NCBI GenBank assembly: GCA_029204225.1
Contig: CM055111.1
Location: 23,930,899 to 23,994,898, forward strand
Direction of reading: 5' to 3'
Length of the DNA: 64,000 nucleotides
DNA from: Diphasiastrum complanatum
Taxonomy: Eukaryota; Streptophyta; Lycopodiopsida; Lycopodiales; Lycopodiaceae
Positions 7,860 to 45,420 of this stretch are shown here, piece by piece. Each line of letters starts with the position of its first letter. The stretch's first letter is position 1. The notes under the pieces were generated by a model. It did not search any database. It was not told the DNA's origin and saw nothing but the letters and a program-made list of their open reading frames with translations. The position numbers and the translations under genes are program-made.

Positions 7860-9357
7860 TAATGGCAATGTTCCATTTGCACGTTGCACTTCCTATGGAA
7901 TGCACTCCAATCATTAAGAAAAATTGAAAGCTGTAGAGAATGTTGCTGCAATAGTTAGAGAATTGAGAATGAATAATCATAAGAATATAGATTTGTGGGT
8001 GGATGGATCAATTTATCCTAATAATCCAGCAACCAATTTGTGTCCAGATTTTAAGTCCGTAACTCATCTTCCCATATTTGCATGTGAAGGAAATAGCGCA
8101 TTACTTGGATATTGTCAAAGGTTGCGTGATATTGGAATGCATAGTGATCTTGTTTTGATCAACAATTACAGTTTGCTAATCAACAATTGCAATGTGCAAA
8201 TCAACAATTGTCTCATTATGTGCAACACACTAGTGTTGAAAACAATGCACTCAGGCATGCTATATCAAAGTTGAATGCTACAATCACTACTCTTCGGGGC
8301 TCAAACCAAGAAATGTTAGAATCCATGGAGAAGTTGTGATCCGACAGTTTAAAATCTGTTGTTGATATACAAGTTATCAAAAAGGCAATGATGAAAGGAA
8401 AGAAAGAGAGTACTGATGAAGAATATTGATGACTTATCAAATGAAAAACGAAATTGCAGAGTTGGATGAAAATGTGATACAAGGTGCATGTGATGTTTCT
8501 GGAATTAGCAGAAATGCTTATTCTACTTTTTTTAGAATAGTTAAAGAAGCCTTTTCTCAAGTGATGGTGAAGAAAACTTAGCTTCCTCATCCATATTGGA
8601 TAAGATTAGCAAGAAATTATTATAATGATGGAATGTTCAAAGTAGTTGGCAAACCACTTCATATAACTGAATTATACAAATCAGAATATGGTGAGCTCAA
8701 TTACAAGGATTGCAATATTTTCTTTGATATTGAAAATGCTCTAAAATACATTAATCAATTCTATAAACTAGATGAACATCAAGTAAATGGAAAGATAATT
8801 ATAGTAATAAAATTGGATGAATCCAAAATCATCAAAGGTCAAAAGTTGAAACGAGTGAGTGTCACTTTGATGAACAAAACTTTCATGGATATTTTCACGG
8901 ACAAATTATGGCAAGATTATAAAGAGACATTTGGAGGGCGAGAAATTTACAATCGAAAACCATGGAAGTTTTCAATTCAATGGCACCTTGCAGGGGATTT
9001 GAAAACATTGAAATGTATGTATAATGTCTCTCATGGGGCAACATCAAAGCATCCATGTCTTTATTGCATGAAGGATTGCTACAATATGAACTTGGAACGA
9101 CCAAACAACACAAGAAGCAGAAGAGTGCTCTGCCAATTCCATTAAAAAATGTTTACATATGCACATTACATGCTGAGGTTCGTATTATTGAAAAACTAAT
9201 TTATCTGCACATTCTCTTTGCATGGAATACAAAACCAAAGTCTGTGGCTAATGCAGCTATTAAGAGGTTGGAAAAAGTTCTTTCAGAGACAAGAATACAT
9301 AAAGGAAATGTCATCATTAAAAAAAGTGATAGAAATAGCGGACAAAATCACAAATGA
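7860..9357 (+). pseudogene. Eroded transposase-like gene, unknown family
   Basis: Conceptual frames on the plus strand, broken by stops and shifts, give: an N-terminal domain (7922-8150, ending YCQRLRDIG); a Gln/Asn coiled coil in another frame (8160-8340, QQLQFANQQLQCANQQL); then a long stretch (8450-9145) with IIIVIKLDESKIIKGQKL, IQWHLAGDLKTLKCMYN and a CLYCMKDC pair; and finally CTLHAEVRIIEKLI at 9159. The LDES and GDLK acidic residues, followed by a CxxC and an LHxxxRI helix, resemble the layout of DDE-type transposases with an inserted zinc motif. I cannot name the family. Base composition is AT-rich like its surroundings, and no inverted ends were found. Confidence 0.4.
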
Positions 9358-14988: not shown

Positions 14989-16448
14989 TGTTGACATATT
15001 CACTAATTCTGTGAACACGTTTTTTCTCTTTTTGTTGCTTATCTCTCTTGGATTACCTCTGTTGTTATGGTTCTCTGTGATTATTCTTCTTATTAGAATG
15101 TTTACAGAGCGGAAGCAATATTCAAGGATGCATTATGTATTTCCCAGCCTGTTAGTGGGTAACTCAAATCCGATACTCAGCTACATGCATACACTAGCCA
15201 CGCAACCATCTACAGCTCAAGCAGATCAGCATTTAGCACAGAGAGCGATCCTACTACTAACTACTGAATCAAAGAACAATCAAGAACTAGATTAGCTACT
15301 GAAACTAAAACCTGATTCAAGAAACAAGAAACAAGATTCCTAGCAGCATTTAACAATCTAGAAATCAAGAAACACATATTACTTGATGTCTAAATTATCC
15401 AAGAACATCAAGAACTAGAATGTCAAGACTATGCAGGATTTACACCACATTTCTAGCCTCTATAGTTTACTTGAATGCTGATTTCTACAAGATTCCACAA
15501 GCAAGAATTGAAGCTAATCTACAACTAAGCAAGAACAAGAAACAAGAATCTAGTTAATCCACAAGCAAGGAATCAAGCATGCTCATAGAAATATCACTCA
15601 AGATCATTGCCATGAACAAGGAGCTTAGTGATCTTCAAGAACTCGTGGAGGATCCTCTTTATTAGCTCAAGAGAACTTGAAAATACAATCAAAAAGCTCC
15701 CTCACAAGAGAGGGGGGCCTTAAATAAGCAAGAAGGCTGCCCATGTGGAGCCCATGTAGCATTCCACTAAATTCCACTAGAGGTCACCATCAAAAGGTGG
15801 CTCACTCTTACTATTTTAAGGAGGTCTACATTTATTACAATTATTCAAGGAAATGTTACTAGCTCCTACATGGTCATTCCTTCTTTGGGATACACCGTGT
15901 AGGTTTACATAGTTAATCACTATCTTCCTAGCTAGTATTTCCTCGGCTCTCATGCTCGGCTCGCAGCTTCTTTTGCTCTCTTCCTTCTGAGACCTCCTCG
16001 GTCATGGGTGAGAGATAACTTATGTCTTCAGCTTGGCTTGGCACTAGAGAATCGGCTAATAGAGAAAGATGGCAAAACCAGAGTACTAAAAGTTGATGTA
16101 TGGAAAAAGCTTGATAGTATGATTGCTATTTTAAGAAAAGAGAAATACTCTGATATTGATAAGAAAGCTGTCCAAAGGACTTGTGTCGAGTTTGTTAATG
16201 CAGTATCAAAAGCATGAAATGCTTCAAATTTTCAATATATCTAGATCGAAACATAAGATTAACATTATGATTTTGACATATGCAGCACATACTAAGAGAT
16301 CATACAACATTTTTTGCAAATACATATGGAAGCTTGAGTGTATAGTCATCACAAGGGATGGAGAAGTCACACTGGCAAGCACGAGCAACATTTCATCGAA
16401 ATACACAACATGGAGGAACCAATGAAAAACAAAACTACATTTGTCAAT
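14989..16448 (-). repeat. Left arm of 1.46 kb inverted repeat
   Basis: This arm matches the reverse complement of 24794-26268 along its whole length, with only scattered differences. Outer ends are TGTTGACATATTCAC here and the complement of GTGAATATGTGACA on the right. Inner ends both reach ACTACATTTGTCAAT. The arm contains an LTR in minus orientation (TATTTAAG promoter at 15719-15726). It separates a Copia gag on its left from a Gypsy RT fragment on its right. Confidence 0.85.
16008..16217 (+). CDS. Conserved 69-residue ORF in the inverted repeat (left copy)
   Basis: The frame encodes LENRLIEKDGKTRVLKVDVW and AVQRTCVEFVNAVSKA. The same frame in the right arm (25026-25235, minus strand) differs at only one residue, and the nucleotide changes between the copies are mostly silent. 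The product is charged and helix-rich with no recognised domain. It reads opposite to the LTR orientation. It may be part of a captured gene, and the copies may simply be recent. Confidence 0.3.
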   Translation: MRDNLCLQLGLALENRLIEKDGKTRVLKVDVWKKLDSMIAILRKEKYSDIDKKAVQRTCVEFVNAVSKA

Positions 16449-17300
16449 CCTCTCACGGTAGACTAAGTTACTGCGGTAAGGTTTAGCCCTAACAGGCTTA
16501 GCATTGTCTTCTAGAGAAATCCGATGTACTACTATTTCAGGGGGGATTCCTTTTATCTCAGTATAATTCCATGCAAATACATCCATGTATTTGCGTAATA
16601 AAGTCTCTAGATCAGACAGTTGGGTTGATGACAAATGTGCACCAACATGAACTATTCAATCTATGTCCTCGTCAGGATCTTTAAGGTTTAGTGGAATTGT
16701 CTTAGCGGGTCCTTCAAAGGAATTGGAACTTGGTGTAGGTTCCCGATGTGGCTGCGGTAACTGGATAACAACGTCATCCAGTGTAAAGTCTTTGAACTTC
16801 TATGGAATATCGAAAGGTGGGTCCACAAAATGTTCTGGGACTTTAGGAATCATTTACAGTGATTCTTTATCAGACGTGGAAGCTTTGTCGGAGTGTTTGT
16901 TGTTTGTCCCCTCTGACAAGGGCTTGATTGGATGTTTAAGCTTCGCACGCATCTATTTTTGTTGCTCGGTTAATTTTGTATCAATAATGTTATTTTTTTG
17001 TAACCTAGGTTTTTGTGGTTTTTGAATGGGTGGTGTTGTGGCCTCACTTACCATATCATCGTCGATTGTATTCCATACTTCATCGGGATACACGTCCCAA
17101 GTATATACTTTGGTTTTGGGCCTATATGCTTGTGTGTTTGGTACTTTGGATGTTAGTTGGACATGAGCCAACGGTCCTGGTGACTTGATTTCCTTAGGAA
17201 TGACTTTGGACGGATAACGTTGTGCATCTAGATAAAGGAGTACATGATCATCCATCATTTCGACATCATCCATGGATATAATACCTTCTTCCAAAACATG
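16449..17300 (-). mobile_element. Gypsy RT start and upstream spacer, minus strand
   Basis: Read on the minus strand: LSSTQLSDLETLLRKYMDVF, AWNYTEIKGIPPEIVVHRIS and KPVRAKPYR form the conserved entry to Ty3/Gypsy reverse transcriptase. Upstream is a spacer with DDVVIQLPQPHREP and FEGPAKTIPLNLKDPDEDID, closely parallel to the plus-strand element at 4500-4680. Further upstream (16953-17294) is the acidic region with MMDDHVLLYLDAQRYPSKV. Several in-frame stops occur. RT is cut off where the inverted repeat begins, at about 16448. Confidence 0.75.
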
Positions 17301-18950
17301 GGCAGTAGAGACACTAGGTTCTCCTGGACATCAAGCTAAAGGAATGGGGTCGATTATCATAAGGGGGATGATGGGTGTGTTAATGTCCGTAGAAGATGGA
17401 AGAATATCCACATCTTCTACAGCCATTTCGATACAACATCTGAAAAATTCCACTCCCAGTAGGTGTAAATATTGTACAGTTTTGGGTATGTCATATTTAC
17501 ATTTAACAATAGACCTGCATCGTTGAATTCTTCAATATTCGCATGGCCTTCTGTAAAAATAGCTTGAACTCTGCATGTCGCCTCCAAAATTTTCATTTCC
17601 AATCGCTGTGCTTCAAAAATTGGTACTCCTTTATCCAGATGTACTCTAGCGCATACATGAACGTTGAGCCTATATACAGTTGAATGACAAAACTTTAAAT
17701 TTGCCCTGGATCATGGCCCAACATAGACAACCCTTTTGCTCTATGCTAAATTGTTCCCATAACCAGAGGAAATCTTCTTTTTCCCACTCTGTCTGCTAGT
17801 CCTCGAATGTCATGCCTACTAAGCCTGGTAGCATCAAATAATCGACATGCCACTGTAATTTGATATTAACATGGCAAGGACTCCACTTCCAGAATTGTTC
17901 AGAAAAAACTTGAAAGCATTCTGCACATACCTTCGACTAATTCCTCTTCGGTCGTTTTGCCTTAGGCTGCACTTCTGCAACGTCCTGTCTGTGGATGTCT
18001 GTAGTGAGCTTCTAGTCTTCGAGCTGTTGTTTGAGGTCTGCTATCTCCTTCTGTAGGTCAGAGATTTTGATGCAGGCTTTAGCGTACTCTAGGTGATCTA
18101 CCACCTTTGTACAATTCTACATTGTTTGTAGTTCCTTTGATAGACTCTTTATCTTTTCTAGGGCTTGTATATATTCATCATGCGCATCTGGCCCAGAGCA
18201 GATGGTAGTCTCAGAGGATAATTCATTCAACTCGGCGAGTTCTTCTTCGACTAGCATCTTGTCATTTTTTATCGAAAGAAGAAACTCGACTCGAAAATTC
18301 TCGAGCATTTGGTCCTGAAGAAATTGCAGCTTCAAATCTGGATTGATACAAAACTGTTGCATAACTGCAATGCAGATTTTGCCCTTATTCTCCTCGTAGT
18401 CTCCACTTGAAGAGTGGTCTGCAGAGTAGTCTTTTCTGTCTTGACCTTATTGAGCTTAGAGTTTAAAGAATAAAATTTTTTCTACAATTCTACAAATCTA
18501 GCCTAAAGTGCTTTATTGTTGTCTTGGAAAGACTGGGCTTCCTACGTTGATTGTTGAAGCATGCGGCCCAAAGCGCGATTTTGCTCGGTTAGCAATTTGT
18601 TGTCTACTTCCAAGGATTCAATCTTCTCAGCCAACATTTTAATGTCACTGTCATCTCGTCCATATGATGGAACAACTGCATCATACTATCTTGGATGTGC
18701 AGGTCATAAGCATGGAGTTTACCAACAATTTCCTTGGCACCCAAGGAGAACTAATGGTACCACCTGTATAGGTTTTCTTTGTCGTCCTCATCCGCATCTG
18801 TGGCTTCCTCATCAATCCCTTTGTCTTTTTCTTGCATCTGGGTGTAGGAGATGGTGTCTTCGTCACATTAGAGGAGTTCTCAATATCAAAAAAACCCTTT
18901 GTAAAGATACTTTTATTTTTTTTCTTTAGTTTCAACCGTCACCAGGCCCA
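17301..18950 (-). mobile_element. Gag-like remainder of the minus-strand Gypsy
   Basis: Broken minus-strand frames continue the element upstream. A piece at 17417-17602 lies where a protease is expected, although no DSG motif is legible. A coiled coil at 18117-18362 (QDQMLENFRVEFLLSIKND, VEEELAELNELSS) and a Lys-rich piece at 18681-18935 look gag-derived. No 5' LTR was identified; homology fades near 18950, where the three-gene module begins. Confidence 0.45.
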
Positions 18951-19330
18951 ATCAAAATGCACAGATTTGAAATCTACATAACGTAGTTCAAATTAACTAA
19001 AAATAAAAATGCAATATAGAATACTTTGAAATTTGTGTCCGGGCAGCATGGACGTATCCCATTGGTTTCTTCTTCCTGCCCGACACGTGCTAATCTGCCC
19101 GATGTCAATACCTCAAGTTAAATTTACTTGACTATGCTGGTTAGTATAATGAAATTTTCTAACTATACTAGTTACAGTTATAAAAATATAGTATGTACAG
19201 TTACATAAAATATGGTATATGTAGTAACTGTGACTATGTTGGCATTCACATTAGATTAAATGTGATACGAAAAATTGAAATTAAGTATCATATTAGAGAG
19301 ATTTTTGGTGCCCAAGCTTTGAAAATAGCA

Positions 19331-20015
19331 ATGGCAAGGAGACCCAGATCTACAATCGATTCTGTGATTCTTTACAATGAGAAAGATGAAGATGATAACT
19401 GGAAGCCAACAAAATATACAAAGAACTCATGGGTATTGCTGCATCCATCATCAAAGGGCAATTTTCGACAAAAGAAAAGAGCAAAAATGACTTACAAATC
19501 TTATTGGAAAGCAAAAAAATTGGAGTTTAAGACTACCCGGGGAGGTCAATCGATATCAGAAGTCTTAGTACAACATGTATATATACATTCAGAAATCAAA
19601 GTACATGATATCAATCCTTATAATCATCAAAAATGTAATTGTAAGTATATCAAAACATATGCACTCTACAGCAATCAAAGGTGATTTCCTTTATTGATGC
19701 TCTTCAGATTATGATTTAAATACTTCAACATTGTTTTTTTCTTTCAGATTTATATCCATCATGCATAAGTGAATGGGAGCCCGCACAATCACTTGCAGGA
19801 ATATTAGACGTGATTCACTCTGATGTTGGAAAGCTGCAATACAGAGGAAGAAGTCCAAAAGAACTTGCAGATTGTGGTATCTATGTACGCCACAAATAGA
19901 TGGAGGTTTTGGTAAGCTCGAAGCAATTCCATTGCCTAGTTTTCAAAGTGATGAGTGGCCTACTCCTGACAGCATTGTTTTTGAATCCCCTGAGATGCAA
20001 GCTACTCATTTATAG
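19331..20015 (+). CDS. Two-exon gene of unknown function (module gene A)
   Basis: Exon 1 (19331-19640) starts at ATG and ends at T|GTAAGT. Exon 2 (19748-19899) follows TTTCTTTCAG and joins in frame, giving about 154 residues. The N-terminus is basic (MARRPRSTIDSV). The middle is rich in Lys and Trp (SSKGNFRQKKRAKMTYKSYW), and the end reads SEWEPAQSLAGILDVIHSDV. Just before the stop another frame opens and continues with good coding character to 20015 (GGFGKLEAIPLPSFQSDEWP, FESPEMQATHL), so one frameshift probably separates it from a longer C-terminus. No known domain is recognised. It points toward gene B, ending about 0.7 kb from B's stop. Confidence 0.45.
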
Positions 20016-20717
20016 TAGAAATGCTATGAAGATAAGCACAGGCTCGAAAATTGTTCACCTAAGTTGGTTTATCTCATTGCATATATTTGTTTTCAGATTT
20101 ATCATCAACGGAAGACTCATAAGTACTTTATGTTTATTGCCATTTCAAAATAGAACAAAATAATAGAAAATGTCATCATTTACAATTGCACATTCACTAA
20201 TATTTGCCATATCACAGATGCGAAAAAGACAGGAGCTGATAACATGCTGCAAAGATCTACCTACAACAATCACCATTGTGGGAGAACAATAGTTTCAAAT
20301 AAACTTTAGTAAAAATCTGTGTATACAATCTTTCATTCAATAAATGAAAGCCCAAGTTGGGCATCTGTACATGTATTTTGTGCTCCCAAATTCATAAACT
20401 GGAGCAGCATTTGATATATCAATGTATATTTTTCTATGAAGTCTATACATGTATTTTTGTTCTATGCTATCTATATTTATTCTGATCTTAATTTAGTATA
20501 ACTACATAATCCTTTGCACCATCATCAATAATGGGAGGCTGAAGCCTTGCCCTAGCCAGTATACTCAGGATGATTTCTTGTCTAAATTTGTACACATGGC
20601 TTGATGTGTACTCAAGAAGTGTAAACTGCAAAATAGAACATTCATGTATTACTAATGGCCAAAAACATCACCAGAATAGAAAACTAATCATGATTCCAAA
20701 ATAAGAATAAACAGAGT

Positions 20718-22204
20718 TTATGACCTTAGAATATCAACATCTTGTTGAAGGTTGAAACACTCAAAAAACAACTTGGCATTGTATAATGTGTATCACCCAC
20801 AGCTGAATGAATCATTTTGCTGGGGTGACTGCAAAATGATATAGCACACAAGAAATCAATTATGAAATAGAATGAATTAGAATGAAAATATTATGTTAGA
20901 ATACTGATTTCAAAATGCTATTAAGAAAGACAGAGTTTACCTCCAAACTGACGATCTGCCAGTCCACGGAATGGGGAACGTCTGTAGGAATATATTTACT
21001 TAGATATGCAATACATCCTTATGCGTATTTCTCGTCGCATCTTGACACAAAAAAACTTTAATAATATTATCTACAGATCTCTTAATAGAGATCAGGTTTA
21101 AACTCCAATGGTCACTGCAAAATAAGATTGAAATTTCTTTAGATGCAATTCTGAGAACTATTTCCATTGACAATGCCAATGTTAATGCATAAAATAACAA
21201 GAAGCATTTAATATATCTTACTTCATATGATAAGGTATGAGCAGATACTTTGTTGCTGGTGTGAATCCACTTGTTAGACACTGTGACAATGTGTCATTAT
21301 TCTCCTTGAAGGCCTGAAGCAGAAAGTTACTCAGCACCAGCAACTCATTTGATGAATCTCTTGCAATGTCATATTGCAAGAGTGTAAGCCCGGACTCAAT
21401 CACAGGATCACTGATAGAAGCCCGTCTGTCTTTGAGGTCCAAGCAATCTAGAACTCTAAAATTAATACTAAAATCAAGTTCATCTAGTCTAAAGCAAAAA
21501 GGAGTACCAATTGTATCTATAGCATCGGATATGTCTTTCTCAAATTTAAGATAATCATTCGAATCTATATATGTATAAAAATTTGGAGGAGGAGGAGGTG
21601 GTGGATGTGTAGTATCTACAGCAATTAAAGGGGTATCCAAAACAGATGTAGTTATCTACAATGGATTCCGGGTTAGGCTTCATAGAATCTGTGGTGTCTA
21701 CGATTCTTACTTTCTTAGGAGCACGCTTGGGGGCTGTCTGCTTCCTAGGATGCTTTTTAGGAAGATCAGTCCTATCTAGAGGAGTTGGTCTAGGAGTAGC
21801 AGGCTGAGGTACATGTAACTTACAATACCTATCCCTCATTCTCATCAGGAGCTGAAAATCCTTGGGCATTATGGTAACTCTCTTGGAATGGATTGCAAGC
21901 AAAAGAGAATCCTCAAAAAAAAAAGACTAATGTAATCTTCAGCAGCCTCCTGAAGGCACTGAAGAGCACTGTGTGTGAATCTAACCAGCTGTCCGAGATC
22001 ATTTCTTGTTATGTTCAGGACAACACGGTAGAATGGAGCTCTTGGGATCAACAGAGCTATTGATCTCTGATACTTGCGTATCTCAGAGGGCCACTTGCTG
22101 CGGTTGCGCGTTCTAGGGCTAGCGGGTGGTGTGATGGCAATCGTAGGGGCTAAGGATGAGCCAGGAGAGAAGAAGTCCCTCCTTGTCTGCTTTCTCCTAT
22201 CCAT
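20718..22204 (-). pseudogene. Histone H3-fold + C48 (Ulp1-type) protease fusion gene (module gene B)
   Basis: Exon 1 (21222-22204) starts MDRRKQTRRDFF, then EIRKYQRSIALLIPRAPF, HSALQCLQEAAEDYIS and HSKRVTIMPKDFQLLMRM: unmistakably the H3 tail start and histone fold. A basic Pro/Lys linker follows (KKHPRKQTAPKRAPKKVR), then IDTIGTPFCFRLDELDF, ISDPVIESGLTLLQYDIA and PATKYLLIPYHM. Exon 2 (20941-21114) gives NDHWSLNLISI (catalytic His), CQDATRNTHK (probable Asp) and DWQIVSLE. Exon 3 (20718-20828) gives SPQQNDSFSCG (oxyanion Gln, catalytic Cys). Introns have GT-AG ends and agreeing phases. Faults: a T10 tract shifts the frame inside the H3 fold, single-base shifts fall near 21635 and 21020, and TGA follows the catalytic Cys-Gly. 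Length if intact is about 420 residues. Domain calls are firm, whereas function (SUMO/ubiquitin-like cleavage at chromatin) is inferred. Confidence 0.8.
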
Positions 22205-23036
22205 GGACGTGTGCTATGGGATAGCGGACTTGTGCGTGACAGTTAGGATGAACAGGGAGGGATGATAAAGAACTCGTAGAGGACCGATATGTACGGACAA
22301 CATGTACGATATATCAAACTTTTGCGAGCCGAATATCAGAGAGAACGATTAGTTTTGAAGAAAGACGCACAAGTGCGATACGGGGAGACACGTAGGCAGA
22401 CGTATCGGACCTATGCGCATGGAAGGCGGTAGGAGGAATATCGATTGTGAAGGACGCGCACAAGTGCGATATTGGAGCGAAAAAAAAAATTGAAAAAAAT
22501 TCATCGAAGTTTGTGATTTTATATCATGGTTTGCACGTGCGAAAGAACATCTTGTCACATGTGTGGGAGTTGTACAGACAAATGCGAGAGCGACACATGT
22601 CACCCTGTCACATTACACATGCTGGATTTGTACGAGCAAATGCGAGAGCGACACGTGTTGTTGAGCAAACGAATGAACACGCGACACATGTCCAGGTGTC
22701 ATTTCACACGTGTGCAGGTGTCACCTCACACGTGCCTGCGCTTGTAGTCCAATTGAAAGTAGACACGTGTCCTAGGTCCGTTGACCACACGTGCAAAAAT
22801 TTAGTATAAATGGCACGAAAATCGATTAATTTTTTACCTTTTTCGTTCTCGAAATTCGCAGCATATTGCTCTTCTGCGCGCTCATTGCTGTCCGTTTGCT
22901 TGCAACTATACCTACTCGTGCACAAGTGCAATATTCGGTATCTGCCTACCGTAAATATCCCTCTTGTGCGCCATCTTGATGGTTAGTTTTTGTTCAGTTC
23001 TCCCTCGCGCACAAGTGCGATATTCACGATACTGCC
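22205..23036. promoter_or_regulatory. Bidirectional control region between genes B and C
   Basis: This 0.83 kb gap between two divergent starts holds four copies of GCACAAGTGCGATA (22367, 22458, 22920 with one change, 23009). It also holds a run of CACGTG/CATGTG palindromes between about 22535 and 22795, and a TATAAA at 22805-22810 oriented toward gene C. A 22 bp direct repeat containing AAATGCGAGAGCGACAC occurs at about 22579 and 22637. CpG content is clearly higher than in the flanking AT-rich DNA. Confidence 0.6.
22805..22810 (+). promoter_or_regulatory. TATA box of module gene C
   Basis: TATAAA in the context TTTAGTATAAATGGC lies about 230 bp upstream of the ATG at 23037 and directly downstream of the last CACGTG palindrome. 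This is the normal order of enhancer, TATA and leader. Confidence 0.5.
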
Positions 23037-24549
23037 ATGGCCTCTTCCTCATCATCCTCATGAGATTCAGGCTTGAGTTCATTTCTTAGTGAATTTGGGA
23101 TTACTGAAAACCTAGACTTCTTCCACAGTCTATTCAGGCCATATCTACATGTTTTCAGGACTGCACAACCAAATTTTGATGTATTTTATAAACATTATGT
23201 CAGAGTTAGAGATATACTTAGTAAGCTTGTTTTCTCCATAGGTCCACTCCAGTACATGCATTATACTGATCTTGTTCATTTCTTCCCAGCTTTCAGACAT
23301 AGACTGGATAGAATGTTCACCAAATTGTTTGATCTTTTCAAAAGCAGTTCAATGTGTCCGTATTGCAACAAGAAATGTCGATTGGTTGAATATCAGAGTG
23401 GTTTCATACTTTTCCTGTTAGTTCAGATCCTAGATGATGAAGAAGTTTCTGTTGCTGACCCTCCTTTTGCATCATCCTCTGTATAGTTAGCTATTAAGGA
23501 TATCACTTTCTTATCGACACTCTTGATAAGAAAAGTGACTTTATTGATGTAAATACTGATGTTCTCCGGGATTCTTTGATTGGCCGAAATACATCTGATG
23601 ATGAATCCAAATCTATAGAGGAGTCGAAATGTCTTTTCAATTTGCCTGTATATTATATTAATGACAATGTATATTTTACTACTACTGATTTATGTAAATT
23701 TTTTGACTATCGTGAAGACGAGGTTCTATGTTTATTATCTGGCACAATTTTCGAATTCTCCAACTTTGTAGTTTTTGAAACAGATGACCTTGTTGCTGGT
23801 ATTGATTTTGATGATGAGGAGGGACTTATGACCGGTGGAGAATGCTTGACTAAGACTTTATCAAATATAGTTGAGGATGGGTGAGGCAGACCATCCGATG
23901 AAGAATTCACGGCATTTCAATCTCAGATGGGCTTCTCTCGTCCATCATTAATGCATTTCACTGATGATTCCACTTCAGTACGTGGTCACTATATTGATCA
24001 TCCTGATCTGGTTGTTGTTGCTGATGAAGAATGTGTAAGTGTTTAAACTTCCTTGCATTAGAATGTTTTCAATCACTGAATGTGTTTTTGCTAACATATT
24101 TCCTATTGCAGGATGCTCTCATAATAGATGATTTTGCTGCGAGACGAGGTGGTTTCAAACAACAGGCATCCTCGTTCCAGAGGGACAGTAGACTAGGCCA
24201 CTATCTTAGACATTTCCTGAAGAATGAGATCTGTATTGCTCATTCCAAGCTGAGCTCAGTCGGGGAGAGTCTTGTAATGACAGTTAAAGCTTTATCATTT
24301 TACCTTGGAGGACATAAATTTGTTAAGACAAATAAGATCATTTTTGTCAAAAGATCTTATTTTTTGAACATTTTAGGCTTTACTGATGGGAATGTTCCTT
24401 TAAGGAGCTCCCATTATTCATTGTATTCCACTTATATTGAGCTTAGTGGAAATAAGGATAATGCACAACTATTAGATGCATATGCTAGCAGAGAATTTCT
24501 TCATGACAATACTGCCATAGAATTTGATACAAGATTTGATGATGAATAG
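23037..24549 (+). pseudogene. Two-exon gene of unknown function (module gene C)
   Basis: Exon 1 (23037-24034) starts MASSSSSS, meets an in-frame TGA at codon 9, then reads LSSFLSEFGITENLDFFHSL, FYKHYVRVRDILSKLVFSIG and a single CPYCNKKC pair. It stops at TAG (23484) and shifts to the frame encoding DTLDKKSDFIDVNTDVLRDS, YYINDNVYFTTTDLCKFFDY and, after another TGA at 23882, GRPSDEEFTAFQSQMGF. The donor is TGT|GTAAGTG. Exon 2 (24112-24549) after TATTGCAG encodes ALIIDDFAARRGGFKQQ, VKALSFYLGGHKFVK and SRKEFLHD-like SREFLHDN. Intact length would be about 470 residues. No known family is recognised. It is strongly acidic toward the C-terminus of each part, and all interruptions look like simple point decay. 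Confidence 0.5.
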
Positions 24550-24793
24550 TTGACACTTTGTATTTTGGTATAGTACAATCTATACATTTACATTGAGTAT
24601 TTCTGCTCTCTTGTTCAATGAATTTGCAAAGCAATTCTGAACATGTCATGATTTGATGACAATGATGACCTTCTACTCAACAATCATCTAATTTTCTCTT
24701 CCTGTATGAACTTGCATGCTTTTCTAAACTTGTTGTATTGTGTGGACTTTGTTATATGTCGAATCTGACCTCTGCGGTAGAACCACTAAAAGA
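24550..24793. other. Right flank of the gene module
   Basis: AT-rich sequence after the stop of gene C, containing a possible 3' processing region and no gene. No inverted terminal repeat matching the left flank (18950-19330) could be found by eye, so the ends of the putative element remain undefined. Confidence 0.4.
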
Positions 24794-25025
24794 ATTGACA
24801 AATGTAGTTTTTTTTTTCACTGGTTCCTCCATGTTGTGTATTTCGATGAAATGCTACTCGTGCTTGCTAGTTTGACTTCTCCATCCCTTGTGATGACCAT
24901 ACACACAAGCTTCCATATGTATTTGCAAAAAATGTTGTATGATCTCTTAGTATGTGCTGCATATGTCAAAATCATAATGTTAGTCTTATGTTTCGATCTA
25001 GATATATTGAAAATTTGAAAGCATT

Positions 25026-25235
25026 TCATGCTTTTGATACTGCATTAACAAACTCAACACAAGTCCTTTGGACAGCTTTCTTATCAATATCAGAGTATTT
25101 TTCTTTTCTTAAAATAGCAATCATACTATCAAGCTTTTTCCATACATCAACTTTTAGTACTCTGGTTTTGCCATCTTTCTCTATTAGCCGATTCTCTAGT
25201 GCCGAGCCAAGCTGAAGACATAAGTTATCTCTCAC
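25026..25235 (-). CDS. Conserved 69-residue ORF in the inverted repeat (right copy)
   Basis: Counterpart of the frame at 16008-16217. The only residue difference seen is Ser for Leu in the LQLG(S/L)ALENR segment. It is transcribed toward the inner end of the arm and overlaps the presumed LTR start. No domain is recognised. Confidence 0.3.
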   Translation of the reverse strand: MRDNLCLQLGSALENRLIEKDGKTRVLKVDVWKKLDSMIAILRKEKYSDIDKKAVQRTCVEFVNAVSKA

Positions 25236-25530
25236 CCATGATCGAGGAGGTCTCAGAAGGAAGAGAGCAGAAGAAGCTGAGAGCCGAGAAAATACTAGCT
25301 AGGAAGATATTGATTAACTATGTGAGCCTACATGGTGTATCCCAAAGAAGGAATGACCATGTAGGAGCTAGTAACATTTCCTTGAATAATTGTAATAAAT
25401 GTAGATCCTTCTTAAAATAGTAAGAGTGAGCCACCTTTTGATGGTGACCTCTAGTGGAAGGGCAAATTCCACATGTAATTTCTAATTTAGTGGAATTGCC
25501 ACATGGGCTCACATGGGCAGCCTTCTTGCT

Positions 25531-25600
25531 TATTTAAGGGGCCCCCTCTCTTGTGAGGGAGCTTTTTGATTGTATTTTCAAGTTCTCTTGAGCTAATAAA
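25531..25600 (+). promoter_or_regulatory. LTR promoter and polyadenylation signal
   Basis: TATTTAAG at 25531-25538 and AATAAA at 25595-25600 are spaced as the U3 TATA and R-region signal of an LTR. The related LTR at 27690 has TATTTAAG in the same context at 28023-28030, and the left arm has it in inverse orientation at 15719-15726. Confidence 0.6.
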
Positions 25601-26269
25601 GAGGATCCTCCACGAGTTCTTGAAGATCACTAAGCTCCTTGTTCATGGCAATGATCTTGAGTGATATTTCTATGAGCATGCTTGATTCCTTGCTTGTGGA
25701 TTAACTAGATTCTTGTTTCTTGTTCTTGCTTAGTTGTAGATTAATTTCAATTCTTGCTTGTGGAATCTTGTAGAAATCAGCATTCAAGTAAACTATAGAG
25801 GCTAGAAATGTGGTGTAAATCTTGCATAGTCTTGACATTCTAGTTCTTGATGTTCTTGGATAATTTAGGCATCAAGTAATGTGTGTTTCTTGATTCCTAG
25901 ATTGTTAAATGTTGTTAGGAATCTTGTTTCTTGTTTCTTGAATCAGGTTTTAGTTTCAGTAGCTAATCTAGTTCTTGATTGTTCTTTGATTCAGTAGTTA
26001 GTAGTAGGATCGCTCCCTGTGCTGAATGCTGATCTGCTTGAGCTGTAGATGGTTGTATGGCTAGTGTATGCATGTAGCTGAGTATCAGATTTGAGTTACC
26101 CACTGACAGGTTGGGAAATACATAATGCATCTTTGAATATTGCTTCTACTCTGTAAACATTCTAATAAGAAGAATAATCACAGAGAACCATAACAACAGA
26201 GGTAATTCAAGAGAGATAAGCAACAAAAAGAGGAAAAACATGTTCACAGAATCAGTGAATATGTGACAG

Positions 26270-27650
26270 GATCTAGGAGCATAAAAAAATAGACATCCTC
26301 GAGAGTCTGCACACACACACCTGGTAGAAAACTCCTACGATCAATCACATCATCCTGATACATCAATTCCATCATCTAGCCATCACCAGTATCAAACCGA
26401 CAACTCATGCTCGTGCAAACAAGCTGAGTATTCCTCACCACAAGAAAATCCAACTCAGCTAGCCATCCAAGATGGTTATGCTATCGCCACCGGACCCATG
26501 AGCAACCGCTGATTTATCTATGACGAAATATGACATTTCATGGCTGACTGTAAAGTTAAAAACCAATACCATGCAGAATGTCCCGACTGTGTTCGCAAAC
26601 ATAGCTTCAAAGACTGTCCTAAACAACCTAACAGGATCCTTCTTGCACGTCATATCACATCTGAACCTGTTAGAGTTCTTACTAGAACACAATGCCAACA
26701 ACAAGAACAGCAACAAAACCATGGACAATCAGCTGACCCACATGGAAGCCATTTGACGGCTCCACAGTACCAAAAGATTACCCAGACCCAAAAGTGGAAC
26801 AAAGGCAATACAACAAATTTCGAGATGAATTTTTGCGAGAGAAAAAACATATGGACAGTCCGTTATCAGCTCATATCCCCGAAAAGGAGCAATCACTCCA
26901 AGGACTTGAAGTATTTTCTGACCTCCTACAAGCTCAATTCACAATGCCATTCCATAGTGCTATCAAATCCTTCACCGAACTTCAACGTTATATCCATCGT
27001 AGTTTTCAGCTGCCTCATATTCTTGATGAACAGCGAAAACCAGAAGCAATTCCTAAACTTCCTCAGATTCCTATGAATCTGATGAATATAGGTGTTGCTA
27101 AGGGGAATAGCATCACACTACCCTTGTCCTATAAAGATTATCCCACAGTATCTGCTATCCTCGATAGCGGATTAGGCGTCAATATAATGGATTTGTCATT
27201 GGCAAAGTCATGGGGCTTCAAAACCCTCGATCAACCACGATATAAACTTCTTATGGCTGATCAACGAGTTACCGACCCTGCTGGTCATTTATCAAATATA
27301 AAAGTTTGAATAGCAGGTGTCAAGTTTATCATCGATTGTGTCATCTTAGACCTATCAGAAGATGCCAATACGTATAAACTCCTTCTTGGTACACCCTGGC
27401 TCCAGATGGCAGATGTTGTCCAAGACTGGAAGAACATCAAAATTACCTTTGGCAACCACGACAAATGAGTCACGGTTGACCCAAATGGCCATGTCAAGCC
27501 CGCCAAGGTATATGATGATTGGTCATCTACAACATATGATGAATCAGATTGTGTCCCGATCCAACCAAAAGGCCACTATACACGAACCACGGACATAATC
27601 AATTGGGGTCGTGCACTAGCTATCATGGACTGTGCAGTTATTTTGTAGAA
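26270..27650 (+). mobile_element. Gypsy gag end and protease fragment
   Basis: Plus-strand frames encode a zinc knuckle CPDCVRKHSFKDC (again CX2CX3HX4C) at about 26580-26620. A Gln-rich segment follows, then a retropepsin: TVSAILDSGLGVNIMDLSLA at about 27140-27200 with the DSG active site, and LLLGTPWLQMADVVQDWKN at about 27385-27435. A TGA interrupts the protease at 27307, and another follows at 27466. RT is missing; an LTR-like sequence begins just after. Knuckle spacing and protease flank resemble the Gypsy at 2580, so they are of the same or a sister clade. Confidence 0.75.
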
Positions 27651-27689: not shown

Positions 27690-28660
27690 TAGAGCTACCC
27701 AAGAGCACCTCTCACCTTAGACCAAGGAGGTCTCTGAGAAGACGAGACTAATGAAGACTAAGAGCCGAGTATGAGAACCGATGAATACTAGTTAGTAATG
27801 ACAAATAAGAACTGTGTAAGCCTCATGGTGAATCCCAAAAGATGGAATGACCATGTAGGAACTTGTATTTCTAGGCAAAGTGATAAATGCAAGTAGACCC
27901 CTCTTAAAGAAAGTAGAGTGAGCCACCTTTTGATGGTGACCTCTAGTGGAGAGCATTATTCCACTTGTAATTTGTGAAATGTGGAAATGCCACTAGGATG
28001 TCACCTAAGGAGCTCTCTTGCTTATTTAAGAGACTCCCTCTTTGAGAAGAGGAGTTTTTTTGTGTATTGTACCTACTCCATGCTAAAATGAGAAGAGCCT
28101 CCACAAGTTTGGTGCATCCATTGAGCTCCTTGATCATGCTTGTTTCTTGAGTGATGCATTCATGATCTTACCCTTCCATCCTTTGTGTGTGGTTGTGGAT
28201 AGTAGAGTGGATTAGTTTTCCTGCTTTCCTAGAGTGGATTAGATTTCATTTCTTGTTTGTGGATTAATGTAAGAATCAGCATTCAATTTAACTAAATAGT
28301 CTGGGTTTGTTGTGTAATTCTTGCATATCCCCTTACAACCTTGTTCTTGATGTTCTTGGGATGTCCAATAATCAAAAGACTGGTTGGTTTCTTGATTCTT
28401 GGACTTCTAAAATGTTGTCTAGTTTAGTTCATTTCTTGTTCTTGTTTTGTGGAATGTATGTGTAGATTAGTTTAATAGTATGTTAAGGATCTGATTCAGT
28501 TCATTTTGCAACATTTAATTAGGATTTCATGGCATTTCAACCACTCTGCACGTTGATTTCTTGGTTGACTGCATGATCTGCATGTTTGGTAGATGAACAT
28601 GTGATTTTAGTTCAAGAGTGATTGCCCTGAGTTGTCCTCTGACAGGCAGGACAAACAAAA
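27690..28660 (+). repeat. LTR, diverged relative of the LTR in the inverted repeats
   Basis: This stretch aligns in patches with 25230-26130: AAGGAGGTCTC, GGAATGACCATGTAGGA, GAGCCACCTTTTGATGGTGA, CTTGCTTATTTAAG, AATCAGCATTCAA and CTCTGACAGG occur in the same order. Identity is clearly lower than between the two inverted arms, so it is an older or different subfamily member. Ends are approximate. Confidence 0.65.
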
Positions 28661-37224: not shown

Positions 37225-38203
37225 GCAATTTAAAAAGAAAATCAAAATTCTAAGTGATTTATGTTTTTGGGTCATAATGTTGGGTGGTCTCAAACATGAT
37301 TGATGACAAATCTCGTCTTGAACGCTTATATGTAATAAACTTCATTCTATGAACTTTACAAATGTGTAAGTTGAGTCTAATATTAATAGAAAACAACGAG
37401 TGTACTTTAAACTTATGGCACAACAACGTAATAAACTTCATTCTATGAACCTTACAAATGTGTAAGTTAAGTTTAATATTAATATAAACATATGGCACAC
37501 TTACCTAATAGACTTTATCCTATGAACCTTACAAATGTGTAATTTGAGTTTAATATTAATAGAAAATAAGAGTGTACTTTAAACTTATGGCACAATTAGG
37601 TAATAAACTTCCTTCTAAGAACATTACACATGTGTAAGTTGAGTTTAATATGAATAGAAACAACAAGAGTACCTTATGCATTTGTAATATATCTATTATA
37701 AATAATAAGCAATTATCACTCAAACTTTATTGAAGGTAATAAATTATTTTTTTTTAACAATTTTGTAGCATTGCTTTATGCGTAAGAAAGAGCCTTGCCC
37801 GGGCCTTCCCCCTTGCTCTCAGGTGCATCACAATACAAAGGCCCTTCCCATATACATGAGTGCAAGATAACATGGGCATGGTTATGAACCTTGGGCTCAT
37901 GACATCAAGGAAAGGCGCTCAAAAAAGGCCTCCCCCTATACACAAATGCCTAGAATGGGCACATGCATTTAATGTGAAGGTGTGCATCCAAGGGTCCATG
38001 TGAAATGAGACATGTTACTGGGGTGGGGGTCAATCTTCCTGTATGTGAAATTGACTCTACCTCTAGTGCGTCTCAATCTTTCACTTGCCAACTGGCTCTC
38101 TCCTCCTCCTCACGCTTTTCTTGTTTCTTTGTTGGCCCAGTCTCCGTTTCCATAGCTTGTTCAAGATCAGAGGATTGTGAGTGAGAGGTGCCAATCCAAT
38201 CCC
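37225..38203. repeat. Right arm of the SABATH inverted duplication (upstream of intact gene)
   Basis: Inverted partner of 32228-33495. It contains the ~94 bp tandem array (37320-37690) and the presumed promoter and leader of the intact methyltransferase. No clear TATA box was seen within 150 bp of the ATG. Confidence 0.75.
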
Positions 38204-39954
38204 ATGGCACAATCTCAGGCAGAACAGATGCCCAATGGATCCACATTTCCTTATACAAGCAGAAATGGCGTTGATTTAGAGAGGCGGCTTCGGATGCAAG
38301 AGGGTGTGGGTGACGAAAGCTATGCTCAAAACTCTTCGTTTCAAGCAGGAATAATCGAGTCGACTCAATATCTTTTGATGCAAGCCTTAGAGAAAGTGCA
38401 ACTCCCCAGGAATGGCCCTGTGCGTGTTGCAGATCTTGGATGTTCATCGGGGCCCAACACGTTGTCTGTTGTCAGCGACATTGTGGACAAGCTGCAGCAT
38501 AGATACGAATCAGAGGGACAAACAGTTCCAGAGTTTCAAGCCTTTCTTTCGGATCTTCCCTCCAATGATTTCAACACCTTGTTCAGCCTTTTACCACCTT
38601 ACCTTGTCAGCTCACAAGCTACCACTGCCAACGATCTCAATAAGAGATGCTACTTTGCAGCAGGAGTTCCAGGGAGCTTCTACAGAAGGTTGTTTCCAAG
38701 CGCTTCCTTGCACACAGTATTAACGACTCATTCCTTACACTGGTTGTCAAAGGTGTGTGCTTCCTGTTAGTAGTATCATCAGTTGTTATTGTAAATCTTC
38801 AAAACACATTTTAGATGGCAAACACTAGTCACTTCCTGGTGTGTAGAAACAACTTGATCCTGCTGAAGATCTTTTTAGCCAGCTTTGTCGTGTATCACTA
38901 GATGTGAGTACTAAAAAGATAAACAGATGGTTTTTTTTTATGAATTTACTAGAATGGAATCTGATATGCATTTTAATAATTTGTCTCTTGAATTCATACA
39001 TAGTACAAATAAGTTTGTAGGGCCTTTTGATTGGTCTACGTAGCTGGTGGATCTGCAATCAATCCAACAATGCTAGCAATAACTCCATCTTGCCAGAGTT
39101 AGCAGTATATGTGTCTTTTTATTTTCGTTAAGAGCTAATGATTTGATGCATTTATATGAAAGCCGTAGTAGTTTTTCTAAGTATTGCTCTACTCCAGGTT
39201 CCAGAAGCAGTCCAAAATAAGTATTCGCCAGCATGGAATCCAGGGCGTACATGGATAAGCCCCTCCAACAAGCTAGCAGCAGAAGAATATTCCAAACAAG
39301 CGAAGGAAGATCTAAGTACCTTTCTTGAGTATCGTGCACAAGAAATGGCTTCGGGGAGCGTTCTCTTTGTGTTGATGACTGGCCGAGACTCGGCAGGTCC
39401 AGAACAGCAATTCTCGTTTCTCGATACCGACAACGAGGACTTTTTTTACGAGTGGTTAGCGGAAATTGACAGTTGCTGGAATGATCTTATCAAAGAGGTA
39501 ATTTCCATCCCAGAAGCACTAATCAGTATGTATGACTTGGATTCTGCTGAATGCTGAAATGGTTGCATGTTTGATCATGAACATGCAGGGAGTGATCGAG
39601 CAAGAAGTAGGAGATTCATTTAACCTGCCTATGTACCTGCGGAATGTAGAGGAGTTCAAGGAGGCGGTGAGAGAGTCATCAAAATTCTCAGTCCACTTTG
39701 TGAAGCTGTTGAAAACAACGTTATTTGACATCACAGAAATGGAAGCAGGAGACGCCGAGGCAGAAAAGGAGAAGGTGAAGAACCGCTCGTTCTCGACTCA
39801 TAGAAGTCTTTTTGGGCCACTGGTGGAAGAACATGCTGGCTCCTCCGTCGCCCAACTGTTTTTCCAACAACTAAAAGCAAGAGCTGACAAGAACGTGAAG
39901 CTGGGTAAGGCTTCCAGTTGTGCATTCCTAGCTGCCTCTATCACTCGGAACTGA
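38204..39954 (+). CDS. SABATH-family carboxyl methyltransferase, intact
   Basis: Three exons with GT-AG introns and phase 0 throughout: 38204-38752, 39198-39497 and 39589-39954, giving 404 residues, the usual family length. SABATH enzymes are cytosolic and transfer methyl from S-adenosylmethionine to carboxyl groups of salicylate, benzoate, jasmonate, auxin or related acids (a few methylate nitrogen). Visible landmarks: SYAQNSSFQ (SAM/substrate motif near residue 45), VADLGCSSGPNTL (SAM-binding loop near 78), FLSDLPSNDFN, PGSFYRRLFPS, THSLHWLSK at the exon 1/2 joint, and DSFNLPMY in exon 3. The ATG at 38204 is used because the frame opens only with non-ATG codons upstream and the pseudogene copy begins at the same Met. 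The substrate cannot be told from sequence. A broken paralogue lies head-to-head 6 kb away. Confidence 0.92.
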
Positions 39955-44214: not shown

Positions 44215-45420
44215 ATCCGTAAATCAATTGTCATTGTCAGTAATCAGCACACGAAGACTTGCTACATTTTGCACTCTCGAAAGTGCAACATACAGCTGCC
44301 TATGACTAAACATAGGCCGAGGCAAATACAATCCAATCGTGTCCATAGTTTGCCCTTGTGCTTTGTTTATTGTCATGGCAAATGCTGCTCTGATAGGAAA
44401 CTGGACCCTCTACAATTCAAACGGTATGTTCAAATCGCTTGGCACCATAGGGATACATGGAATAAGAACTCTACTCCCTATATTCTTCCTGGTCACTATC
44501 TTCGCCTCTATGACTTGTCTACCCAATCTGAGGATGATCAATCTTGTGCCATTGCACAATCACTTGTGTGACGCTATCAATCGTAACAACATCACAATCA
44601 TCCCAATCTTCAGCACCAACTTATGTGGAGGACACCCACTCGGTTGCAGGCTGTTCAAATACTCTATAGGGTGGACATTAGAGCCCTCACACTCAACAAC
44701 ATTGTCGACACTATAAAAGGTCGAAACATCACTCGGAAGCTGCTCAACAACCCTCACATTGATCTCGTCCACATCTTTGTTCAATGGGATCAATATTGCA
44801 CGACTCCTCAAAAACTCAACATCCTTAAAACATCATGCAACATCAAGAAATGAAATCAATTTGCCCACATCATGCGTCCTTAGACACATGCCCTTTGGCA
44901 GGAAAATCAGGTCCAAATCTGATGCACGAATGTGGGCTCACGACCATCTCCCACACTCAACAAATAATCTGCAAACCTCAACTGCTCATCCTTATCGCCA
45001 CCCTCCATTCCCATGACGTGCATGTTCTTTGTCAATTTGTGCACCTCCACGTGTTTCCACAAACGTGAACACTTCAATGAAGCGTTGGCAATCAACGCCC
45101 AATTACCACGCAGTACCACTGGTAGAATCTGTCCAAAATGACCCTCGAAAACAATTGGAACTCTTCCAAATGGAGCGTCGATACTCAATATATCTCGCAG
45201 AGATCGATCTACACACTCTATAGCATACTTAGGTACCATGGGAGCCTCATCCCAAATGATCGGTCAACATGCCATCAAAAACGTACCTAACGCAGATTGC
45301 TTAGAAATGTTGCATGTCGAGCTCTCATTCAATTCCGTCGGAGGAATTTTAAATCAAGAGTGTGTAGTCTTACCACCTTTCATCAATAGTTCAACAATCC
45401 TACACGATGCAACTGTTAGT
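44215..45420 (-). pseudogene. Helitron-type PIF1 helicase, C-terminal part
   Basis: Minus-strand frames in three segments reproduce the PIF1-like helicase end of plant Helitron Rep/Hel proteins: LMKGGKTTHS, IIWDEAPMVPKYAIECVDRS (Walker B), GRVPIVFEGHFGQILPVV (the family has GDFRQ), HKLTKNMHVM, AILIPLNKDVDEINVRVVEQ, HPIEYLNSLQPSGCPPHKLV, GMIVMLLRLIASHK, AFAMTINKAQGQTMDTIGLY and LYVALSRVQNVASLRVLITD. Walker A and the Rep domain upstream are missing. Stops and frameshifts occur, and the FRQ arginine motif is changed to FGQ, so the enzyme is dead. The Helitron ends (TC and a CTRR hairpin) were not found. Confidence 0.8.

Follow-up and report, generated by a model that had tools for sequence, protein, structure and literature searches.

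A 64,000-nucleotide (64-kb) stretch of the genome of Diphasiastrum complanatum (contig CM055111.1, positions 23,930,899 to 23,994,898), referred to below as the window, carries on its minus strand, at 20718..22204, the remains of what was probably a single gene, in which a domain resembling histone H3 is followed by a basic linker and a Ulp1-type (C48) cysteine protease. Our tentative explanation is that this dead gene came, probably, from a multi-gene mobile element and encoded a chromatin-tethered, anti-silencing deSUMOylase. A further idea, that the gene represents an undescribed family of mobile elements in which an H3 mimic puts a SUMO protease on or in the nucleosomes of the element and strips off SUMO-dependent silencing, is doubtful in our opinion. 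With a frame that shifts three or more times and two stops on the way, the copy found in the window cannot make the protein.

From the ATG at 22204 the minus strand presents the H3 fold, the Lys/Pro linker and the protease motifs HW...QQNDSFSCG, in this order. The original prediction had described one spliced minus-strand gene with an H3 part, a Lys/Pro linker and a C48 part; the domains, their order and the strand agree with it, and the linker is present in the translation, but the reading frame is interrupted by stops and frame changes. The start codon and the N-terminal MDRRKQTRR, which resembles the beginning of the H3 tail (MARTKQTAR), occupy 22178..22204, and the histone fold spreads over two frames at 21834..22084. 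Translation from the ATG gives MDRRKQTRRDFF...EIRKYQRS...LQEAAEDYIS and, after the first frame change in a run of ten T (T10, 21915..21924), passes into FFEDSLLLAIHSKRVTIMPKDFQLL; the histone residues of the second frame, FFEDS...HSKRVTIMPKDFQLL, directly follow LQEAAEDYIS. Without the shift, translation ends within the histone fold at the stop 21871-21869. A transcript stop or end between 21915 and 21640 had been named beforehand as evidence against the fusion, and the DNA of this copy does have a stop there.

The Lys/Pro/Ala-rich linker (...KKHPRKQTAPKRAPKKVRI..., 21660..21833) is followed by a second frame change at the boundary with the protease (21637..21668). The first part of the Ulp1-like region (SISDPVIESGLTLL ... 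YLLIPYHM) occupies 21222..21655, in an exon-like stretch common to it and the histone. Next come putative intron 1 (GTAAGATA...TTTTGCAG, 21115..21221), an exon with the catalytic His (NDHWSL, 20941..21114) containing TAA 21002-21000 and a frame change near 21005, and putative intron 2 (GTAAACTC...TTTTGCAG, 20829..20940); both introns have GT...AG ends. The exon with SPQQNDSFSCG (20725..20828) contains TGA 20795-20793 directly 3' of the CG codons, and a putative last exon (...YKFRQEIILSILARARLQ..., 20488..20625), whose frame is discontinuous with that of the preceding one, runs to TAA 20490-20488. Thus, the gene extends to about 20488, and the form of the third exon junction is uncertain.

Both domains were recognised by hidden Markov models, as had been suggested for checking the conceptual exons: in the read-through, i.e., the translation with X at each break, the Pfam profiles Histone and Peptidase_C48 score above their curated cut-offs. 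Histone (PF00125) gives 91.7 bits (E 5.2e-26, cut-off 26.4). Open reading frame (ORF) pieces scored apart match profile positions 29-93 (E 1.3e-13) and 94-122 (E 5.3e-7), both above the cut-off, and since these matches are contiguous on the profile, the fold is complete across the T10 run. The H3 fold predicted from EIRKYQRS and LQEAAEDYIS is borne out in both frames and in the read-through. The best 60 of 178 sequence matches in the PDB are all H3-type by name, one being merely a "Histone domain-containing protein", and the top match scores 78 bits. Identity to plant H3 amounts to 45 of 82 residues, and R69, R83, H113, K115, R116, T118, P121, K122 and D123 are retained in the alignments, in what we take to be the H3 numbering, which is used here for all residues of the histone part. 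Compared with MARTKQTAR in an anchored alignment, the N-terminal MDRRKQTRR is identical at 5 of 9 positions, and 49 of 100,000 shuffles were as good; in an unanchored local alignment of the N-terminus with the H3 tail the likeness is not significant, being reached by 24.8% of 5000 shuffles. An H3 N-terminal tail with K4, K9 and K27 is not found there, as K4 is kept, the position of K9 is occupied by D and the rest is missing at the N-terminus.

On the read-through, Peptidase_C48 (PF02902) scores 34.7 bits (E 2.1e-8, cut-off 20.7), and the Cys half scored alone, with X at its stop, still reaches 22.5 bits. The best PDB sequence matches of the protease part are a Ulp1-like SUMO protease (6dg4, 1.1e-4) and yeast Ulp1 (1euv, 1.5e-4), and a weak alignment with SENP2 (E 0.33) runs from SISDPVI, which lies in the first exon-like stretch, to the SCG motif. 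The part resembles Ulp1/SENP SUMO proteases in HW, in the Q-x5-C-G spacing and, weakly, in a SENP2-like domain start; it differs from them in that its catalytic Asp is unconfirmed and the gene is broken. Of the signature originally reported (HW, then an acidic residue, then QQND..SCG), HW and QQND..SCG are present, while for the acidic residue no Asp stands, in the HMMER alignment, opposite the position presumed by us to be that of the catalytic residue in yeast Ulp1. The D that stands 23 residues past the His, in FLCQDA, is no more than a candidate. Scored alone, the His (HW) half has no Pfam match, nor has the stretch 21222..21655, and an open C48 reading frame is not found in this copy, owing to the frame changes and the TGA after SCG.

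A single ancestral H3-C48 gene is the better reading of this arrangement, and the fusion is probable. The H3 part and the Ulp1-like start lie on the same strand, in one exon-like stretch, and the two frames used are free of stops. From its last upstream stop (21658) to 21226 the C48 frame lacks an ATG; therefore, the C48 part could not start alone there, which favours one gene. The linker is basic, and its local alignment with the H3 tail is matched by 0.8% of 5000 shuffles, in a test made post hoc, when the likeness had already been seen. These three features speak against chance neighbourhood, i.e., an H3-like pseudogene and a transposon-derived Ulp1 fragment lying head to tail with a non-coding stretch in place of the linker. 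We consider chance neighbourhood possible, although on the unlikely side; it accords with the number of breaks (three or more frame changes, two stops), with a joining stretch of a length that chance gives, with the lack of a fusion relative in the protein searches and with the presence in the window of several broken retroelement pieces, including pieces of a copia-type gag.

A number of results weigh against a fused gene borne by a mobile element. When the local 4.2 kb were simulated 200 times with a Markov model, the longest stop-free stretch had a mean of 103 amino acids, a 95th percentile of 138 and a maximum of 244, so the stop-free stretches observed here are no longer than chance gives and are not significant by themselves. 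Protein databases were searched within length ranges of about 256-815 amino acids (full query and residues 200-466) and about 135-428 amino acids (residues 1-185), so that a much longer fusion would be missed. Within these ranges, the full query found seven proteins, each with a Histone domain at 18-27% query coverage and none with both domains; residues 200-466 gave no protein with both domains among 753 candidates (E up to 10); residues 1-185 gave 128 matches, the best 120 of which all bear Histone and none both domains. In the 64-kb window, tblastn revealed no second copy of this unit. The seven ORF pieces of the unit contain no Pfam transposase, and neither these pieces nor the fusion read-through match DUF1985, DUF287 or the mudrA/MULE transposase in Pfam. 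A comparison of the left (16441-20480) and right (24550-26600) sides for terminal inverted repeats (TIRs) with a target-site duplication found none, its three weak matches lying within the 0-4 that 20 shuffles gave. The unconfirmed catalytic Asp also counts on this side.

A scan of bacterial and archaeal genomes with the fusion found no relative, and IMG/VR scans with it and with the two other gene-like stretches described below (the divergent one and the third) detected none at this sensitivity, bar one chance-like match of 18 residues. No H3-C48 fusion is reported in the titles, the opening parts of abstracts and the passages of the open-licence literature, and both "protease" and "peptidase" are absent from a review of viral histones. 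The original statement that no described family with such a fusion is known accords with the results from the protein databases and from these parts of the literature. Two metagenome proteins, P0001 and P0007, consist of a long unrelated N-terminal part and a C-terminal H3 fold. P0007 was considered as a protease-H3 fusion on account of motifs noticed by eye and was rejected: it has no Pfam protease, the best 60 of its 186 PDB matches are all histones, it has no viral locus, and a single-sequence fold prediction (mean predicted local distance difference test, pLDDT, 37) was useless.

The histone fold was probably under selection at the protein level before the gene broke, as simulations of neutrally decaying H3 support. 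With Pfam Histone, the real H3 part scores 89.6 bits, whereas nine of nine decayed H3 sequences of like divergence, taken from 1000 simulations, score 29.1-58.0. With a profile of the 123 hits, which is biased towards the query because the query had selected them, the real part scores 112.4 against a simulated maximum of 89.3, and none of the 1000 simulations reaches the real score. Scoring well above simulated decayed H3s, the fold probably diverged at a time when the gene still made protein. The family profiles, which are the tests that address position-specific constraint, thus disfavour a canonical H3 that decayed neutrally as the origin of the histone part, but the other measures do not separate the two and count against selection: 289 of 1000 simulations do at least as well as the real part when the profile is that of a single H3 sequence, the mean BLOSUM score is -0.57 for the real part and -0.51 under neutrality, with no clear difference, and 11% of the neutral simulations have no stops, so the absence of stops is no discriminator.

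The same simulations bear on the explanation that an H3 fragment was captured by a DNA transposon carrying Ulp1 and was amplified as a passenger, the fusion never being functional. In fungi, the capture of H3 by a hAT transposon is documented, with hundreds of decayed copies (PMC6710886), and MULE and CACTA elements are described in another study as frequently capturing Ulp1 (PMC2528002); judged only by its stops and its substitution score, the H3 part does not differ from neutral decay. However, it keeps the family-typical residues at an identity of 45 of 82, and passive decay in the simulations did not yield that, so we find passenger capture rather improbable.

Its sequence does not clearly assign the H3 part to the centromeric type. 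A tree of 124 rows shows it on a long branch (1.87) with a weak placement (66/90), outside an 11-row group (97/94) that contains all seven CENH3-like rows, the latter being presumed CENH3-like from an RWT-type motif. Among 18 diagnostic columns it is like H3 in 2, like CENH3 in 3 and like neither in 13. Loop 1, longer than that of H3 by one residue, T85 and D98 are as in the CENH3-like rows, and the complete H3 fold and F84 are as in canonical H3; the part differs from both in its identity to plant H3, its long branch, the loss of most of the tail and the C-terminal extension. A host chromatin gene, i.e., a non-mobile gene for an H3 variant ending in a SUMO protease, now a pseudogene, would be in line with the putative introns, with the lack of TIRs and of a repeat copy in the window and with the importance of SUMO control for centromeric chromatin (PMC10172491). 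Nevertheless, such a gene seems highly improbable, because no orthologue occurs in the searched protein collections, which include plant proteins, e.g., those of Ceratopteris and Diphasiastrum, and because both neighbouring gene-like stretches are without a known family and the divergent one is broken.

The divergent neighbour, on the plus strand at 23037..24549 (MASSSSSS, a stop, then ...CPYCNKKC...), is interrupted by TGA 23061-23063, a frame change at about 23490 and TGA 23882-23884. Its three ORF pieces have nothing above the cut-off in Pfam, nor does the stretch in NCBIfam, and it has one PHROGs match with E 0.11; the fold prediction for a piece of it (mean pLDDT 33) was useless. A third gene-like stretch on the plus strand (MARRPRSTIDSVIL..., 19331..19684), placed tail to tail with the fusion and without a known family, may belong to the same unit. 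In the 0.83-kb gap between the divergent genes (22205..23036), the near-palindrome CGCACAAGTGCGATA is repeated and ACAYGTGT is clustered. Six copies of the near-palindrome (with two mismatches or fewer) lie at 22222-23022 and nowhere else in the window, against 0.06 expected. For ACAYGTGT, 4.07 matches would be expected in the window and 17 occur; 9 of the 17 fall at 22557-22770, where they represent six sites, palindromic sites being counted on both strands. Together, the H3-C48 copy, the broken divergent gene and the gap with its motifs suggest a dead multi-gene mobile element. The remnant of an integrated large DNA virus was also considered, as such viruses have fused histones and the gene-like stretches alternate in direction; with putative introns and with IMG/VR giving, at the sensitivity used, nothing but the chance-like match, this origin is hardly probable at all.

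A repeat pair of 1.49 kb, inverted and 94% identical (14994-16451 and 26264-24791), flanks the unit. It is doubted that this pair forms the ends of the element, because a further copy of about 70% lies at 27709-28418 and stretches looking like gypsy elements adjoin; it is probably a dispersed repeat or solo long terminal repeats. An Asp_protease_2 match below the cut-off lies at 26737-27309. Elsewhere in the window, pieces of a SABATH-type carboxyl methyltransferase were found at 38156-39954 (PF03492 in three ORFs, 1.9e-45, 1.1e-14 and 3.3e-16), which, like the copia-type gag pieces, suit plant DNA, and a fragment of a PIF1-like helicase, possibly of Helitron origin as a guess, is present on the minus strand at 44907-45263 (PF05970, 8.1e-28). 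Plus-strand ORFs at 8582-9357 contain Cys and His and have a transposase-like look; 8582-9145 has no Pfam match above the cut-off.

If the H3-C48 gene belonged to a mobile element, its H3 domain would pair with H4, placing or tethering the protein on chromatin, and the protease would strip SUMO, or a like modifier, off silencing proteins there. Removal of SUMO would counteract the silencing of the element. An analogy is offered by the VANDAL elements of Arabidopsis, whose VANC/KIU proteins act at short motifs repeated in the elements' own non-coding DNA, and an anti-silencing role like theirs is our best guess. The relevant papers state that VANC proteins bind short repeated motifs in the non-coding parts of their elements and bring about a loss of silent marks (PMC5735166; PMC10398659), and that KIU-type VANC genes, carrying an Ulp1 domain, act on motifs that related elements have in their non-coding regions, with hypomethylation as the effect; the exact part played by the Ulp1 domain is given there as unknown (PMC13317346). 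An earlier study describes Ulp1 domains as a repeated feature of the MULE and CACTA elements of plants and, in KI-MULEs, as standing in opposite orientation to mudrA (PMC2528002). The recurrence of Ulp1 in elements, the action of VANC/KIU and the capture of H3 in fungi make a chromatin-tethered deSUMOylase the most likely ancestral function, in our opinion. The functions proposed originally, relief of SUMO-dependent silencing and centromere positioning, are speculative.

The pairing of H3 with a SUMO protease is unusual and may point to resistance of mobile DNA to silencing. A histone fold on such a protease would suggest chromatin as the site of its action, which makes the anti-silencing idea directly testable, and intact copies, if they exist, would be a natural histone-tethered deSUMOylase.

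Among known systems, Kaonashi elements (KI-MULE/KIU) and VANC are similar to the present unit in having a Ulp1-type protease in an apparent element gene on the strand opposite to its neighbour. Repeats of a short motif in the unit's non-coding DNA may be another likeness to KIU/VANC, the binding here being putative and the cluster confined to one gap; the passages available on those proteins mention no histone domain, whereas an H3 fold is present here. CACTA elements with a Ulp1 domain, known from grapevine and rice, likewise show C48 carried by a DNA transposon, the difference being that no match to Tnp2 or another transposase occurs here. The H3 captured by hAT elements in Dothideomycete fungi is comparable in that a mobile element contains or adjoins a sequence coding for H3; there, it is a passenger copy of a host gene inactivated by repeat-induced point mutation (RIP), whereas in Diphasiastrum complanatum a diverged H3 is followed downstream by a protease.
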